Shown here in pieces: positions 1,978-31,690 of a DNA stretch of 64,000 bases (its first letter is position 1; each line of letters begins with the position of its first letter). Made by a program: the position numbers and the translations under genes. The notes beneath the pieces are model-generated. The model had not been told where the DNA came from. It saw only the letters and a program-made list of their open reading frames with translations, and ran no database searches. Origin of the DNA: Moorella sp. Hama-1 (lineage in GTDB: Bacteria; Bacillota; DSM-521; Neomoorellales; Neomoorellaceae); contig NZ_AP024620.1 of NCBI RefSeq assembly GCF_023734095.1, positions 492,501 to 556,500 of the forward strand, given 5' to 3'.

Positions 1978-2832
1978 ATGCGTTTAGCGCCGGAAGGGCT
2001 CAACATCAGGGATATAGATCCATGGGATGCTCTGTACATTGCCAGGGATAAAGGGAAAATCGTAAATGTGACCATAGTTCGTACGAGGCAGGTCAATGGC
2101 CAGGGCCTTACCTGGGAGACCAGCTTTGGAGATCAGGAAAATCTATTCGAGATTGTCGGGTTAATCCCAGAATCGGAAAGCGGCCTCCCCGACGGTATAT
2201 CAATGAACTGGTTTAGAAACCAGTCTGTTGCGGCGAAAGTCAAAGGAATTGACAGGAGGAACAACATAGTCGCCCTTTCCAGAAGAGAGGTTGTAGAAGA
2301 GAATCTGAGTCGTCTACTTGATCAACTGGAAGAATCAGAACGACTTTACGCCCTTATAAGAGCCGCCAGGCCGGCGGGCATTGTTGTGGATATCGGAGGC
2401 GGCGTTCTAATCGACATACCCCGCAAAAAAATTAATCTATCCAGAGCAGTGCCTATTGAAGTGCAATATACCCCCGGCCAATTAGCAAAAGTGGAGGTTA
2501 CAGGGATTGATAAAACGTCAAAAAGAATTGATGTCGCAATAATAGATCCATGGCAGCCCAATGAATTCGCCAGGGGCGAAATGGTGACCGGGAAAATAGT
2601 TCAGACCGTCGATAACGTTGCCTTTGTCCAGGTAAGGCCCGGTTTGGTCGGCATTGCCCCTTATCCCAAGAGCGAGCATATGGGAATCGGTGATACAGCG
2701 AGCTATCAAGTGCGAAAATATGATGCGGATGGCAGGGTGCTCCACCTTGTCCGCTGGGATGACGAAAGGATCAGGGGAAGGAGGGGTCAACGTGCACGAA
2801 GGATCAGAAAAGAAGCAAGCAGTCCCGAATAA
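1978..2832 (+). CDS. S1-like RNA-binding domain protein
   Basis: A 284-residue protein; ATG 1978 is chosen because GCAGGAGGGA lies nine bases upstream. Three successive OB/S1-like units can be read at about residues 25-100, 120-190 and 195-255, the last two with the pattern GxIVxxVDNVAFVQV and later IGDTASYQVRKYD. Each ends in a strand such as NNIVALSRRE, SKRIDVAII or GRVLHLVRW. The C terminus is arginine-rich (RIRGRRGQRARRIRK), as expected for a nucleic-acid binder. In the element it follows the topoisomerase gene; the partner nucleic acid is unknown. It overlaps the next gene by 41 bases. Confidence 0.65.
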   Translation: MRLAPEGLNIRDIDPWDALYIARDKGKIVNVTIVRTRQVNGQGLTWETSFGDQENLFEIVGLIPESESGLPDGISMNWFRNQSVAAKVKGIDRRNNIVALSRREVVEENLSRLLDQLEESERLYALIRAARPAGIVVDIGGGVLIDIPRKKINLSRAVPIEVQYTPGQLAKVEVTGIDKTSKRIDVAIIDPWQPNEFARGEMVTGKIVQTVDNVAFVQVRPGLVGIAPYPKSEHMGIGDTASYQVRKYDADGRVLHLVRWDDERIRGRRGQRARRIRKEASSPE

Positions 2833-3463
2833 AAAGGACGTTAATTACGCCAGGGGGATAACCATGGGCGCAGCCCAATACAGGCAGGGGGACTGCGAGT
2901 CCCTCGATTTCACGGGCCGCGCCTCCGAACTTATTATGTGCCTCTCGGAAGCGCTGGCCCTTACTACCGGCGCGGCGGCAATCGCCTTATCATGCCACCG
3001 CAAAGTGGCCGGTTCGGCCATGAACAGCTTGTGGTGGTCGGGCATGGTCCGCTGGGTTAATGTCTTCGCCGAAATGGGGCAGTATCAAGGTCAATTCCGC
3101 TTATGGTATCGGGCCGACGCCAGGCCGCCCCGGGACGCCCAGGAAGCATGCCGTCTGGCGGCTTTGGGGCTTTTCTACGCCCTGGCGAAAAAGGAGGTGC
3201 CGGGATTCAAATGGCAGGTAATGAGAAACGGCAAGAATGGTATTTTGGCAGAGATGCAATTCGACAGCAACAGCGGGGCCAACAAATGGCTGATTGACGC
3301 TCCGCGCCGGGACGAAAATCCCCATCCCCAGGCCGACGTTTATATTTTTCCAACTTTGCTAGAAGGAGAAACCCTTACGCCGGCGGGGAAAATGTATACC
3401 GCCGACGAACTGCTCTTTGAACCCGGAGAACTGCGCCGGAAAATTTTTCGGAAAACCCCTTGA
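2792..3463 (+). CDS. Hypothetical protein of the element backbone
   Basis: A 223-residue protein. GTG 2792 is the likely start, because GGGAAGGAGGGG sits just upstream inside the preceding S1-domain gene. No signal peptide or membrane segment is visible. The middle holds LSEALALTTGAAAIALS and a tryptophan-rich stretch (NSLWWSGMVRWVN). The end has VYIFPTLLEGE. I do not recognise a family. Translational overlap with the S1-domain gene suggests coexpression. It is the last gene before the structured gene-free region at 3525-4320. Confidence 0.55.
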   Translation: MHEGSEKKQAVPNKKDVNYARGITMGAAQYRQGDCESLDFTGRASELIMCLSEALALTTGAAAIALSCHRKVAGSAMNSLWWSGMVRWVNVFAEMGQYQGQFRLWYRADARPPRDAQEACRLAALGLFYALAKKEVPGFKWQVMRNGKNGILAEMQFDSNSGANKWLIDAPRRDENPHPQADVYIFPTLLEGETLTPAGKMYTADELLFEPGELRRKIFRKTP

Positions 3464-3572
3464 CGGCTGCCAGACAAACTGCTAATCTTTAATTTAAGAT
3501 AAACTTCCTATACTTTCAACTCCTTGCCTGCCAGGGTACCCTCTCCTGGCACGGGTGGAAGTCCCGGAGCAA

Positions 3573-3779
3573 CTGCCGGCGATGAGCGGGCGGATATGTT
3601 GGCAAGCGAGGTCCTGGGAAAAATTCCTCGTGATGAGCAGGGTGTACTCTCAGGACAGGCGCGTTAGCGATGAGCAGGCGCGCCACATCTCGCGCCATGG
3701 CGATGAGCAGGCGCGGGCGGTGGGACCCAACCGAAATAGCGGGCAAAATGGCACGACCGCCACGGCGATGAGCAGGCGG
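3573..3779 (+). repeat. Five hairpins with a conserved GCGATGAGCA loop
   Basis: The motif (G/C)G(C/T)GATGAGC(A/G)GG occurs at about 3579, 3630, 3667, 3700 and 3765. Four copies sit in the loop of a clear stem: CTGCC/GGCGG (3573-3593), GGCGCG/CGCGCC (3658-3684), CGCGCC/GGCGCG (3691-3715) and CCGCC/GGCGG (3757-3779). The second copy has only a weak stem. The stems differ in sequence but keep pairing while the loop is constant, which points to a repeated protein- or RNA-binding loop. Confidence 0.6.
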
Positions 3780-3899
3780 CGTGAACCGGAAGATGGCCGG
3801 CGCTACAGGTCCGGCCCGTGGGGTAAGCGGTGCAAACCGCAACGGCAGGAAGGTGGACTCTTCCGAGGGCAACCGTAATAACCCCTTGTAAAAAATGTC

Positions 3900-4098
3900 C
3901 TAACCGCCGCAGGCGGGAGCTGACCAACTCCAGTGGCGCTAAAAGTGGGGGGTGGCCTCCCCGACATGAACTGGCTAGCTGCCGATCAAAGGAGAGCCCC
4001 AACCTTCGGCAGTGACAAGAAAGCTGACGGGCTAACCGCCGCAGGCCGGAGAGTGCCCAACTCCAGCGGCGCTAAAAGGGTAGGAGTGGCTGTCCTCA
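3900..4098 (+). repeat. Two diverged 66-base tandem units in element RNA 1
   Basis: Units at 3900-3965 and 4032-4098 share CTAACCGCCGCAGGC, CCAACTCCAG and GGCGCTAAAAG in the same order, with a spacing of 132 bases. Each can form CCGCC(GCA)GG-type, GGAG/CTCC-type and a third G-rich hairpin. The first hairpin also occurs in element RNA 2, at 8615-8627. Confidence 0.6.
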
Positions 4099-4164
4099 AA
4101 TAGACGGGGCAGGGTTGCGCGATCGGGAGCGGTTCACCGGCGCGGCCCGCGAAGAAGGAACCGC

Positions 4165-4232
4165 AATGATATGTACGCCTAATGGCGTACAGGAGAGATA
4201 ATGATATGCACGCCTTATGGCGTGCAGGAGAA
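4165..4232 (+). repeat. Tandem 35-base hairpin units with a compensatory base pair
   Basis: Two units, at 4165 and 4200, each read AATGATATG, a 7-bp stem, a four-base loop and CAGGAGA. The stems are GTACGCC/GGCGTAC and GCACGCC/GGCGTGC. The one difference in the stem is a T-A pair replaced by C-G, with both bases changed. That is direct evidence that pairing is selected. Confidence 0.7.
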
Positions 4233-4254
4233 AATGAAATATTAGCTAAGAAAT

Positions 4255-4318
4255 AAAACACTTTGGCCGACGAAAGCAAGTTAAGCATTACTTGCCAGGT
4301 TAGAGTGTTTTTTGCTTT
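4255..4318 (+). terminator. Rho-independent terminator of element RNA 1
   Basis: AAAACACT (4255-4262) pairs with AGTGTTTT (4304-4311), with an inner stem GCAAGT/ACTTGC, followed by TTTGCTTTT. It closes the structured region on its 3' side. Confidence 0.7.
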
Positions 4319-4422: not shown

Positions 4423-4629
4423 ATGAACCGGGAAGAAGTGGCAAAGATTGTCGAGGAGTTGCCCAAAGAGGACCAGATCTGGCTGTTAAACCAGATCATC
4501 TGGCGGTTCTGGCCGCAGTTCCAGGGCAAGGCGGTGGCCTTCTATGACCCAACCGAGGCCTGGGATGACTGGGACGACGAAGAACTGGACGAGTATTACC
4601 AAAAAAAGTGGGAGGAAGCAAAGGAGTAA
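4423..4629 (+). CDS. Small acidic protein, probable antitoxin partner of the MazF-like protein
   Basis: A 68-residue acidic protein, ATG 4423, beginning MNREEVAKIVEELPKEDQ and ending in an Asp/Glu/Trp-rich tail. The first half looks like a helical pair that could bind a partner; no DNA-binding fold is obvious. Its 3' end overlaps the MazF-like reading frame, the usual order for antitoxin before toxin. The antitoxin role is inferred from position only. Confidence 0.55.
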   Translation: MNREEVAKIVEELPKEDQIWLLNQIIWRFWPQFQGKAVAFYDPTEAWDDWDDEELDEYYQKKWEEAKE

Positions 4630-4960
4630 CGGCTTCAAACCGGGAGACGTAGTGATAGCTGAAATCCCCTACGCCGATAAAGAAGGCGGCAAGGCCAGGC
4701 CCGCCCTGGTGTTGAGCTCGTATGAGCACAACCAGACGCGGCGGGACCTGGTGGTCGCCAAAATTACCGGTACCGGGGTGTTCAGCCCCTGGGACATAAG
4801 GATAAACAAATGGCTGGAAGCGGGCCTGGTGAAACCATCCAAGGCTGTTTGCGACCATATTTCGGTGGTTTCCGGGGCTTCGGCAATAGTAGTCGGGCAT
4901 ATTGATGCCGGGACTTTGGCCGAAGTCAAAAAGAAAGTTGGCCTGCTTTTAAGTCTATAG
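4565..4960 (+). CDS. MazF/PemK-like toxin (start uncertain)
   Basis: Family features begin at FKPGDVVIAEIPYAD and continue with GKARPALVLSS, a DLVVAKIT strand and the late VVSGASAIVVGHIDAGTL. This matches the SH3-barrel MazF/PemK endoribonucleases, which cut mRNA at short sequences. The fold starts only at about 4632, yet the nearest ATG codons in frame are 4544 and 4565, inside the upstream gene. No ATG, GTG or TTG lies close to the fold, although AAAGGAG sits right before it. The start is therefore unsettled, and initiation at an unusual codon or by translational coupling is possible. Confidence 0.65.
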   Translation: MTGTTKNWTSITKKSGRKQRSNGFKPGDVVIAEIPYADKEGGKARPALVLSSYEHNQTRRDLVVAKITGTGVFSPWDIRINKWLEAGLVKPSKAVCDHISVVSGASAIVVGHIDAGTLAEVKKKVGLLLSL

Positions 4961-5478: not shown

Positions 5479-5745
5479 GTGATTGCCGTGGAAGAAACCA
5501 AAAAGGAAACGGCATCGGCAGGGGAACCTCCGCACCGTCTGGTGTCGGAAGAGTTTTTCTTCCTGCTAAACCGAATTGACCGGCTGGACGAGAAGATGAG
5601 TGCTGGCTTTAGTGAGGTACGGAAGGAACTTACTGATGTCCGCAAGGAGATCGTGGGTGTCCACCGCTGGTCTTTCGGCCTGCTGGTAACCATGCTGGTA
5701 GGCTTCGCCAGCGTAATCGTCACCCTCGCCTTGGGACTTCGATAG
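5479..5745 (+). CDS. Small C-tail-anchored membrane protein, copy 1
   Basis: An 88-residue protein from GTG 5479 with GGAGGTGA upstream. Residues 25-60 form a charged amphipathic helix (LLNRIDRLDEKMSAGFSEV). The last 22 residues are one membrane segment (GLLVTMLVGFASVIVTLALG) ending in LR. The layout resembles small coiled-coil, tail-anchored phage proteins of the XhlA kind, but the sequence is not diagnostic. It is followed by a near-identical second copy. Confidence 0.6.
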   Translation: MIAVEETKKETASAGEPPHRLVSEEFFFLLNRIDRLDEKMSAGFSEVRKELTDVRKEIVGVHRWSFGLLVTMLVGFASVIVTLALGLR

Positions 5746-5805: not shown

Positions 5806-6051
5806 GTGATTGCTATGGAAGAGACTAAAAAGGAAACGGCATCGGCAGGGGAACCTCCGCACCGCCTGGTGTCGGAAGAGTTTTTCTTCCTGCTGAACCG
5901 GATCGACCGCCTGGACGAAAAGATAAGCGCCAAGCTGGATAGTATGCACAAGGAGATGGGGGGCATCAACCGCTGGGCTTTCGGCCTGCTGGTAACCATG
6001 CTGGTAGGTTTCGCCGGCGTAATCGTCACCCTCGCCTTGGGGCTGCGGTAA
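5806..6051 (+). CDS. Small C-tail-anchored membrane protein, copy 2
   Basis: An 81-residue near-duplicate of the preceding protein; GTG 5806 or ATG 5815 could start it. The first 40 residues and the C-terminal membrane segment are almost unchanged. The middle helix is shorter (KISAKLDSMHKEMGG). Two versions of different helix length could form mixed oligomers, or the copy may be redundant. A terminator follows at 6083. Confidence 0.6.
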   Translation: MIAMEETKKETASAGEPPHRLVSEEFFFLLNRIDRLDEKISAKLDSMHKEMGGINRWAFGLLVTMLVGFAGVIVTLALGLR

Positions 6052-30179: not shown

Positions 30180-30253
30180 GCGGGTGTAGCTCAATGGTAG
30201 AGTTCCAGCCTTCCAAGCTGGTTACGTGGGTTCGATTCCCATCACCCGCTCCA
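30180..30253 (+). tRNA. tRNA-Gly (TCC)
   Basis: Acceptor stem GCGGGTG/CACCCGC, anticodon loop CTTCCAA, encoded CCA. Reads GGA and related glycine codons. Confidence 0.95.
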
Positions 30254-30260
30254 AATTCAG

Positions 30261-30337
30261 GCGCCTGTAGCTCAGCTGGACAGAGCAGCGGCCTTCTAAG
30301 CCGCGGGCCGCAGGTTCGAATCCTGCCAGGCGCGCCA
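30261..30337 (+). tRNA. tRNA-Arg (TCT)
   Basis: Acceptor stem GCGCCTG/CAGGCGC, anticodon stem GCGGC/GCCGC with loop CTTCTAA, encoded CCA. Confidence 0.95.
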
Positions 30338-30348
30338 GGAAAAGACGT

Positions 30349-30426
30349 GGTGGGTGTAGCTCAGTTGGTTAGAGCACCAGGTTGTGGCCCTGGGGGTCGT
30401 GGGTTCGAGTCCCATCTCCCACCCCA
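30349..30426 (+). tRNA. tRNA-His (GTG)
   Basis: Anticodon stem CCAGG/CCTGG with loop TTGTGGC, encoded CCA. The extra G at the 5' end faces a C at the discriminator position, as expected for histidine tRNA. One acceptor-stem mismatch is visible. Confidence 0.93.
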
Positions 30427-30439
30427 CTTTTATTTATAT

Positions 30440-30515
30440 TGGGGCGTAGCCAAGCGGTAAGGCAACGGACTTTGGATCCGTCATTCCGCTGGTTCGAATC
30501 CAGCCGCCCCAGCCA
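30440..30515 (+). tRNA. tRNA-Gln (TTG)
   Basis: Acceptor stem TGGGGCG/CGCCCCA, anticodon stem ACGGA/TCCGT with loop CTTTGGA, encoded CCA. Confidence 0.94.
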
Positions 30516-30523
30516 GTATTTAT

Positions 30524-30599
30524 GAGCCATTAGCTCAGCAGGTAGAGCACCTGACTTTTAATCAGGGTGTCCGGGGTTCGACTCCCCGATGGCTCACCA
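30524..30599 (+). tRNA. tRNA-Lys (TTT)
   Basis: Acceptor stem GAGCCAT/ATGGCTC, anticodon stem CCTGA/TCAGG with loop CTTTTAA, encoded CCA. Confidence 0.95.
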
Positions 30600-30607
30600 T
30601 TTTTTTT

Positions 30608-30692
30608 GCGGGCGTGGCGGAAGGGCAGACGCGCCAGACTTAGGATCTGGTGGGGTTCACCCGTGGAGGTTCAAGTCCTCTCGCCCGCACCA
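30608..30692 (+). tRNA. tRNA-Leu (TAG)
   Basis: Acceptor stem GCGGGCG/CGCCCGC, anticodon stem CCAGA/TCTGG with loop CTTAGGA, a long variable arm as in class II tRNAs, and encoded CCA. Confidence 0.95.
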
Positions 30693-30711
30693 AACCTAAT
30701 AAAATCAAGGC

Positions 30712-30740
30712 ATTCCGGGTTTGAAGCCCGGAATTTTTCT
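30712..30740 (+). terminator. Terminator of the tRNA cluster
   Basis: ATTCCGGG (30712-30719) pairs with CCCGGAAT (30726-30733), followed by TTTTCTTT. Confidence 0.88.
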
Positions 30741-30864
30741 TTACCTATGCGCGTTAGATTTTCGATCCAGTCTAACGGAAAGTCTAACGCAGTGGTCTTA
30801 TGCGAAAACTCTTACGCAACTACTATTTTTCTTAGATGCAATGATTACTTTCTTATCAACTATA

Positions 30865-31515
30865 GTGCGCCGAGCCAAGCTCGGATTATGCTCGTGGGCT
30901 GAAAAATGCCCACCGCGGTAATTTCCCGTTCGCCGCGAAGTCTGAGGCAGGCGGGCAGGGGTAACCCGAAACGTCAAGCTGCCTGACAAAGGTCCGCAAG
31001 GATCGAGACGGGAGGGGCGGGCCGTAACGCAAGTAAACCCGAGGTGGCCTCGAAAACGCAGTTGCTGCTGGCGACCTTGCCCCACAATGGGGAAGCCTGA
31101 CATCCGCCGTGGAGCAACGGGCTGGCTCAAGGCACCGGTAGTTGAACCAGGCGGACCCCGGCAAGGCAAGAAGAACCAGCAGGGAACGCCCCAGGGAGGG
31201 CCTTTATCACCTTGCTGGCCAACGTATATCTGAACAAGCTGGACTGCTACTGGTATAGTGCCCAGGGGCCGTACGTTAAATATAACGCCCGCCTGGTACG
31301 TTACGCCGATGATTTTTGCTGGCCCGCTATATTGGGAAACCGGTACAGGAAGCCGTAGAGGAAACCATTGCTGCTCTAGGACTAACCTTAAACCGGGAGA
31401 AGACCCGCATCTTTAACCTTCGCGCCGGAGAAGAGTTGAACTTCCTGGGATACACCATTAACATGTGGAATACCCGCCACAGGTCCGTTCAACTTAAACC
31501 CAGCCACAAGGCCTA
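30865..31515 (+). mobile_element. Degenerate group II intron
   Basis: GTGCGCCGAGCCAAGCTCGG at 30865 has the GTGCG 5' end and first stem of bacterial group II introns. The next 300 bases are GC-rich and stem-forming (for example AATTTCCCG and CGAGACGGGAGGGGCGG segments typical of domain I). A broken reverse transcriptase frame follows from 31183. No convincing domain V or 3' splice site is found, so the 3' end is lost. It lies directly behind the tRNA cluster. Confidence 0.65.
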
Positions 31516-31516
31516 G
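31183..31516 (+). pseudogene. Group II intron reverse transcriptase, remnant
   Basis: Pieces of the polymerase domain appear in three frames: GTPQGGPLSP, then LLANVYLNKLDCYWY, then ARLVRYADDF with the catalytic YADD box, and finally ARYIGKPVQEAVEETIAALGL, REKTRIFN and ELNFLGYTI. At least two single-base frame changes separate them. The N-terminal part and the maturase (X) domain are absent. It cannot make an active enzyme. Confidence 0.85.
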
Positions 31517-31587
31517 GTTGTACATTTTGCAGGAAAAAGAGATTTTGTGTCGAATATCAAATAACGAACGGAAAACGTTACCCTTTC

Positions 31588-31690
31588 CCCAAGGGCAAAC
31601 CTTCCGAAAGGGAGGGACGCAAAGTCATGGGTCTAAGGCTGTAGCTATGATTGCCAGACTGCCGGGATTTCCTCTGGCAGCCTTTTTAGG
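31588..31690 (+). promoter_or_regulatory. Cyclic-di-GMP-I (GEMM) riboswitch with terminator
   Basis: The aptamer core is visible as GGCAAACC, CCGAAAGG, GGGACGCAAAG and GGGTCTAAGG, the GEMM-I consensus. It closes with GATTGCCAG near 31650-31658. The expression platform is CTGCC (31659-31663) pairing with GGCAG (31676-31680), then CCTTTTT. The chemoreceptor gene follows 125 bases later, so motility signalling appears to be set by cyclic-di-GMP. Whether ligand turns it on or off is not read from sequence. Confidence 0.88.

Follow-up and report, generated by a model that had tools for sequence, protein, structure and literature searches.

The locus described here raises the question of why five closely spaced hairpins should present the same loop on stems of different sequence. 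A search of the window, that is the whole stretch of 64,000 nucleotides from Moorella sp. Hama-1, for the motif GCGATGAGCA with at most one mismatch revealed five copies on the plus strand between positions 3579 and 3774, three of them exact and two with a single mismatch (starts 3579, as GCGATGAGCG; 3630, as GTGATGAGCA; 3667; 3700; 3765). One further match occurs in the rest of the window, and the expectation for both strands averages 3.1. The total number of matches is ordinary; the remarkable part is the presence of five on the same strand within 196 nt. The earlier note had counted the motif five times in about 210 bases and had quoted four differing stems, all of which are present. Copy 2 is also borne on a stem (CCUC/AGGG within a longer helix), and the minimum-energy fold of the RNA contains all five hairpins. 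The span delimited in the earlier note holds the five hairpins correctly but covers about a quarter of the RNA to which they would belong.

The five hairpins make up the 5' half of a predicted noncoding transcript of about 0.8 kb, which sits in a noncoding gap between an orphan open reading frame, orf230 (ending at 3463), and a PemK toxin region (Table 1). In 14 of 15 close homologs, a TTGAC box precedes the hairpin-2 anchor by 172-178 nt; in the fifteenth, locus L060, it lies further upstream, beyond the stretch scanned. A strict promoter scan gave a match in 14 of 31 RNAs against 1.76 expected, and the window's own putative promoter fails this strict rule owing to its -10 box. The predicted terminator is kept across the alignments of close homologs, and the fold energy of the RNA is somewhat better than that of shuffled sequences (MFE z -2.5). 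The 3' half carries a second repeated module, B (CUAA(S)-stem-CUAARAG), present in 0-2 copies per RNA as detected by pattern and in three copies in the window if a degenerate one is counted; alignment of module B yields a single common helix and little else. Rfam covariance models attributed no family to the RNA of the window, of L060 or of other homolog loci. A limited search of the literature on Moorella, Desulfotomaculum and large RNAs found no description of it, which leaves its absence from the literature unproven.

Table 1. Features of the window around the predicted RNA
Feature	Position	Strand	Remarks
S1-domain protein	1978..2832	+	Pfam S1; bS1-like, several OB domains; model pLDDT 85
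orf230, orphan ORF	2759..3463	+	predicted winged-helix domain and alpha/beta part
sigma-70-like promoter	3460..3488	+	TTGACG, 17 nt, TAATCT; overlaps the orf230 stop codon
noncoding RNA, ~0.8 kb	about 3495..4317	+	predicted ends, from promoter and terminator
hairpin 1	3573..3593	+	CUGCC/GGCGG, neck GC-GC, loop GAUGA
hairpin 2	3611..3656	+	long outer helix, internal loop, inner stem, GU-GC neck, loop GAUGA
hairpin 3	3658..3684	+	GGCGCGUU/GGCGCGCC, loop GAUGA
hairpin 4	3690..3716	+	UCGCGCC/GGCGCGG, loop GAUGA
hairpin 5	3757..3779	+	CCGCC/GGCGG, loop GAUGA
module B, copy 1	3900..3945	+	CUAAC-CGCC...GGCG-CUAAAAG
module B, degenerate middle copy	3973..4022	+	boundaries approximate; read from the sequence
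module B, copy 3	4032..4078	+	pattern match
intrinsic-type terminator	about 4254..4317	+	AAAACACT ... AGTGTTTTTTG, inner hairpin, T run; predicted

Homologs of the RNA were identified in 30 genomes, each with at least one copy and three of them with two. The carriers are mostly integrative or conjugative elements of Moorella, Desulfotomaculum, Desulfofundulus and other clostridia, and the host bacteria are heat-loving anaerobes. Blastn, which returned homologs with 76-77% DNA identity, found the RNA in five of 149 relatives, the window's own genome being counted among them, and in one more family (G288), among whose relatives 10 of 200 gave a match; one of these, in G487, amounts to 38 nt only, and R2 detected no RNA in that genome. 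A degenerate pattern run against about 85,000 species genomes returned eight contigs, belonging to Moorella mulderi, Desulfotomaculum copahuensis, Desulfofundulus thermobenzoicus, D. thermosubterraneus, a Desulfovirgula MAG and three other MAGs, one of which carries the label Deltaproteobacteria. The covariance model R1, applied to 398 genomes, gave 13 at E<=0.1, of which six matches (E 0.017-0.08) were taken as chance. R2 found the RNA in 24 of 200 relatives of G446 and in two of 149 relatives of G386. Short blastn matches in 15 further genomes (E 5e-4 to 0.01) were likewise read as chance; on a similar set, R1 added one new convincing match, G386. Among plasmids and phages, blastn of the RNA region and tblastn of orf230 were both empty, and four pattern scans and a profile scan of viral contigs gave no match.

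The genes around the RNA are conserved as well. An S1 gene and orf230 lie directly 5' of it in all 15 close loci with upstream sequence (the set comprises 16 loci, one of them at a contig end), in agreement with the earlier statement that an S1-domain protein is encoded nearby, and element genes follow the RNA. The S1-domain protein is related to ribosomal protein bS1 (Pfam S1, bS1 chains). The orphan orf230 belongs to no Pfam family; its structural model is of low confidence (pLDDT 66), and a fold search returned weak wHTH matches alone.

A further 14 genomes hold distant relatives of orf230. The RNA was predicted to lie near them and was then detected downstream by R1 at nine of 16 loci, where it is invisible to blastn; with wider flanks it was found at 10 of 14 loci. 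TraG and S1 genes are located upstream in 13 of these 14 loci. The loops of the RNAs recovered in this way are GAAGA, GAAAA, GCUGA, GUCGA or GAUGA. Counted by genome, the RNA is present in 20 of 23 genomes bearing orf230, and in the G000 set the five of 149 genomes that carry orf230 are exactly those that carry the RNA. The three genomes with orf230 in which the RNA was not found are G194 (the contig ends soon after orf230, and R2 gives a weak match, 0.0056), G474 (contig end, genome 70% complete) and G352. In G442 (locus L142) the RNA lies about 14 kb from orf230 with a group II intron match between them, and in G411 the two are on different contigs, both near contig ends. An orphan ORF of about 230-260 aa stands right after orf230 in L101, L103-L108, L110 and L112-L114, and precedes the RNA in those orf230 loci where the RNA was found.

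A second subfamily of the RNA comprises six copies in five genomes (loci L137-L141 and L143). No match to S1 or orf230 was obtained in the stretches fetched around these six copies. At five of the six loci (L137, L138, L140, L141 and L143) the RNA lies upstream of a tyrosine recombinase gene, located 0.6-2.1 kb downstream, and a possible coiled-coil ORF (120-238 aa) precedes the RNA in L137, L140, L141 and L143 but not in L138. RNAs of this subfamily have fewer hairpins or less uniform ones. Since this subfamily has no detectable S1 gene nearby, the S1 protein is not a general partner of the RNA; it may be one partner where it is present.

Conservation of the hairpins extends to their structure. 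All five occur at the same places and with the same spacing in 14 of 14 distinct close homologs (70/70). When the arms of the same hairpin were compared among nine lineages, 4.53 of five positions paired with the own arm, a value reached in none of 2000 permutations, against 3.95 with arms of other lineages. In an independent MAFFT alignment (A2), 93.8% of cells are paired and 19 of 41 pairs change on both sides, whereas the shuffled mean is 12.0, the best slid version gives 10 and none of 500 shuffles reaches the observed count. A second alignment of 25 RNAs (A5), which was fitted to the structure model and leans towards that structure, gives 96.2% paired cells and 35 of 40 pairs changing on both sides (0/500 shuffles). 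In the outer helix of hairpin 2, both sides change in six of nine pairs, and the internal loop of this hairpin (AAARU opposite UGUAC) is near-invariant in the close homologs. Among 956 paired cells, 78 are G.U and five are A.C, which indicates that the plus strand is the structured one, as RNA.

The loops vary within narrow bounds. The 70 loops of the 14 close homologs are GAUGA (53), GAAGA (6), GAGGA (6), GAGA (3), GUGA (1) and GUUGA (1). In 20 lineages, 99 apical loops were placed, and every one is a GNNRA pentaloop or a GNRA tetraloop. These loops were located partly by motif patterns, so that misfits could be missed; the set includes five of the six loops of L060 (all six hairpins there carry GAAGA) and four of L108 and leaves out the extra hairpins of L105, L106 and L112 and the loops of the second subfamily. 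Two loops break the rule, GAAUA in L137 and UAAUA in L142. Hairpins end in a two-base-pair neck followed by GNNRA or, with one base fewer, GNRA. Four of the five hairpins of L028 (D. thermosubterraneus, contig L041) carry GNRA tetraloops, and the pentaloop can hence be regarded as a GNRA tetraloop with one additional middle base. In the complex of the phage P22 N peptide with boxB, the pentaloop (GACAA) is GNRA-like, and the base between N and R is looped out and contacts the protein (PMC12550061). By analogy, we infer that the GNNRA loops adopt a GNRA-like fold with the middle base looped out.

Loops are alike inside an RNA and differ from RNA to RNA. Identical pairs make up 0.724 of loop pairs within one RNA against 0.281 after permutation (0/5000), or 0.603 against 0.259 when the uniform GAUGA RNAs are set aside, shared descent of related RNAs remaining in this test. 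The stems around the loops differ, so this likeness did not arise by copying of entire hairpins. What sequence comparison shows is a conserved RNA family in which stems covary and loops stay within GNNRA or GNRA. The proposal of constant loops on changing stems was accordingly borne out by stem covariation and by the loop class: among the aligned homologs, none was found in which loops drift on stems that do not covary, and such drift as there is stays inside GNNRA/GNRA and tends to agree within one RNA. The platform proposed earlier, which would for example sequester a regulator or organise an oligomer, is supported in part.

The reading that we prefer, with a probability of about 0.6, is that of a conserved, free-standing structured noncoding RNA with the five hairpins as its 5' domain, the GNRA-like loops of which would serve as a multivalent docking platform, likely for protein. 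Such an RNA, carried by integrative or conjugative elements and by some recombinase-bearing elements, would act in the life cycle of the element, its five loops (range three to six) presumably offering identical surfaces to a single type of partner. Each loop would most likely bind one copy of a protein; in elements that encode an S1-domain protein, that protein is the first candidate. By a small margin, a protein is preferred to RNA-RNA docking, since the loops of one RNA agree with each other and the known looped-out pentaloop bases face proteins. Against a platform stand the loops of the second subfamily, fewer and less uniform, and the two loops outside GNNRA/GNRA. Few families of large structured bacterial RNA are known, mostly of unsettled purpose; the present RNA would extend them by one and would link such molecules to conjugative and integrative elements, most of which also encode a bS1-like protein beside the RNA. 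Its internal repeat of five alike, jointly changing loops points to a single kind of partner and makes its function directly testable.

The main alternative, serious although we consider it unlikely, is an assembly of RNA alone, in which the loops would make A-minor contacts with helices, either of their own RNA or of adjacent copies, to give a homo-oligomer of the ROOL or GOLLD kind. GOLLD, ROOL and OLE resemble the present RNA in length (about 0.6-0.8 kb) and in complex structure, and size, structural richness and location on mobile elements all match ROOL and GOLLD. GNRA-like loops are classical docking elements, module B provides a second repeated module in the 3' half, and the RNA persists without an S1 gene in the second subfamily. 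ROOL and GOLLD cages are held together by A-minor contacts and kissing loops, and the cage RNAs described use several differing contacts, not one loop fivefold (PMC12286853). Copies of module B number 0-2 by pattern, or three in the window with the degenerate one, not five. GOLLD and ROOL are borne by prophages and phages, whereas the present RNA resides on conjugative and integrative elements, and the repeated five-loop domain sets it apart from GOLLD, ROOL and OLE alike. The models of these three families gave no match at E<=5 in the window region or L060, none at E<=1 in ten homolog loci and none at the gathering score in 17 more.

A system comparable to phage N/boxB is doubtful. The S1 protein would bind the five pentaloops through its arginine-rich C-terminal helix (residues 262-281 in the predicted structure) and act on transcription, translation or transfer of the element. 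The constant position of the S1 gene and orf230 upstream of the RNA in close loci favours it, as does the arginine-rich tail present in 12 of 15 S1 proteins of the close loci and in several further copies, and the loops GAAGA and GAAAA, which are those of lambda boxB, do occur. The tail is absent from the S1 proteins of L060, L067 and L068, whose RNAs keep their hairpins, and also from that of L111; it was unscored in L110, L113 and L114, where the shown ends miss the tail region, and in the frame-broken L112. Together with the lack of an S1 match near the six copies of the second subfamily, this weakens the tail as an obligate reader, and basic tails are common among RNA-binding proteins. The GNRA-like pentaloop with a looped-out base is common to boxB of P22 and lambda and to the present RNA, where it is recognised at the level of sequence and the fold is putative, and most elements encode an arginine-rich helix close by. 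The present RNA differs in presenting at least five copies within one large molecule with its own promoter and terminator, and no phage N protein is involved. It is filed under neither GOLLD/ROOL/OLE nor boxB. About as doubtful is a broader version, in which an element-encoded, bS1-derived protein with an arginine-rich helix, replaced by another protein in the second subfamily, would read the five or more GNNRA loops, loop and reader co-evolving. If true, it would provide the element with a multivalent ribonucleoprotein for transcription, translation or handling of the transferred DNA, and represent a new class of mobile-element ribonucleoprotein.

It is also improbable that the hairpins are merely stable caps that owe their shared loop to folding and descent and serve no common partner. 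Folding alone could explain why the loops are conserved, stable GNRA-like caps being common and favoured, and loops do differ in the second subfamily. This reading fits poorly with loops that are alike within an RNA on hairpins with differing stems, with the fixed number and spacing of hairpins in close homologs, and with the conservation of internal-loop and neck architecture beyond the loop itself. Finally, a processive antitermination element of a conjugation operon (conAn2, put or EAR type) is very unlikely: element genes follow the RNA, and bipartite RNA-protein antitermination systems such as conAn of pLS20-type elements exist in Gram-positive conjugative elements (PMC8955417), but the present RNA is closed by its own conserved, predicted terminator, is not positioned at the start of an operon and has no Rfam match to such elements.

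Three other candidates were rejected. The sRNAs bound by CsrA/RsmA (RsmY/RsmZ) share the multivalent layout of many hairpins with one loop motif. They are defined by a GGA loop, which occurs here only as GAGGA in two of 99 loops, and the present RNA is several times longer. Type III toxin-antitoxin systems (ToxI/ToxN), in which an antitoxin of short tandem repeats precedes a ToxN-type toxin, are not consistent with the unequal spacing and different stems of the hairpins, and the downstream PemK gene is preceded by a small ORF of its own, the arrangement of type II pairs. As for a group II intron, the sole match of the covariance model in the window is at 30895-31032.

Several features of the surroundings deserve mention. 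A small antitoxin-like ORF and the PemK toxin gene come right after the RNA (window positions about 4423-4957); at L025 a differing, YgiT-like pair takes the place of the PemK pair, as read from the ORFs. Two pieces of a topoisomerase C-terminal repeat (47-658 and 1713-1973) are separated in the window by about 1 kb of unrelated sequence, and homologs have a single topoisomerase gene directly 5' of the S1 gene. Two short ORFs of 88 and 81 aa, at 5479-5745 and 5806-6051, are tandem near-duplicates. GOLLD and ROOL have been described near tRNA islands; in the window, a tRNA gene cluster is found at 30180-31667, together with the group II intron match (D1-D4) and a c-di-GMP-I riboswitch, 26 kb from the RNA.
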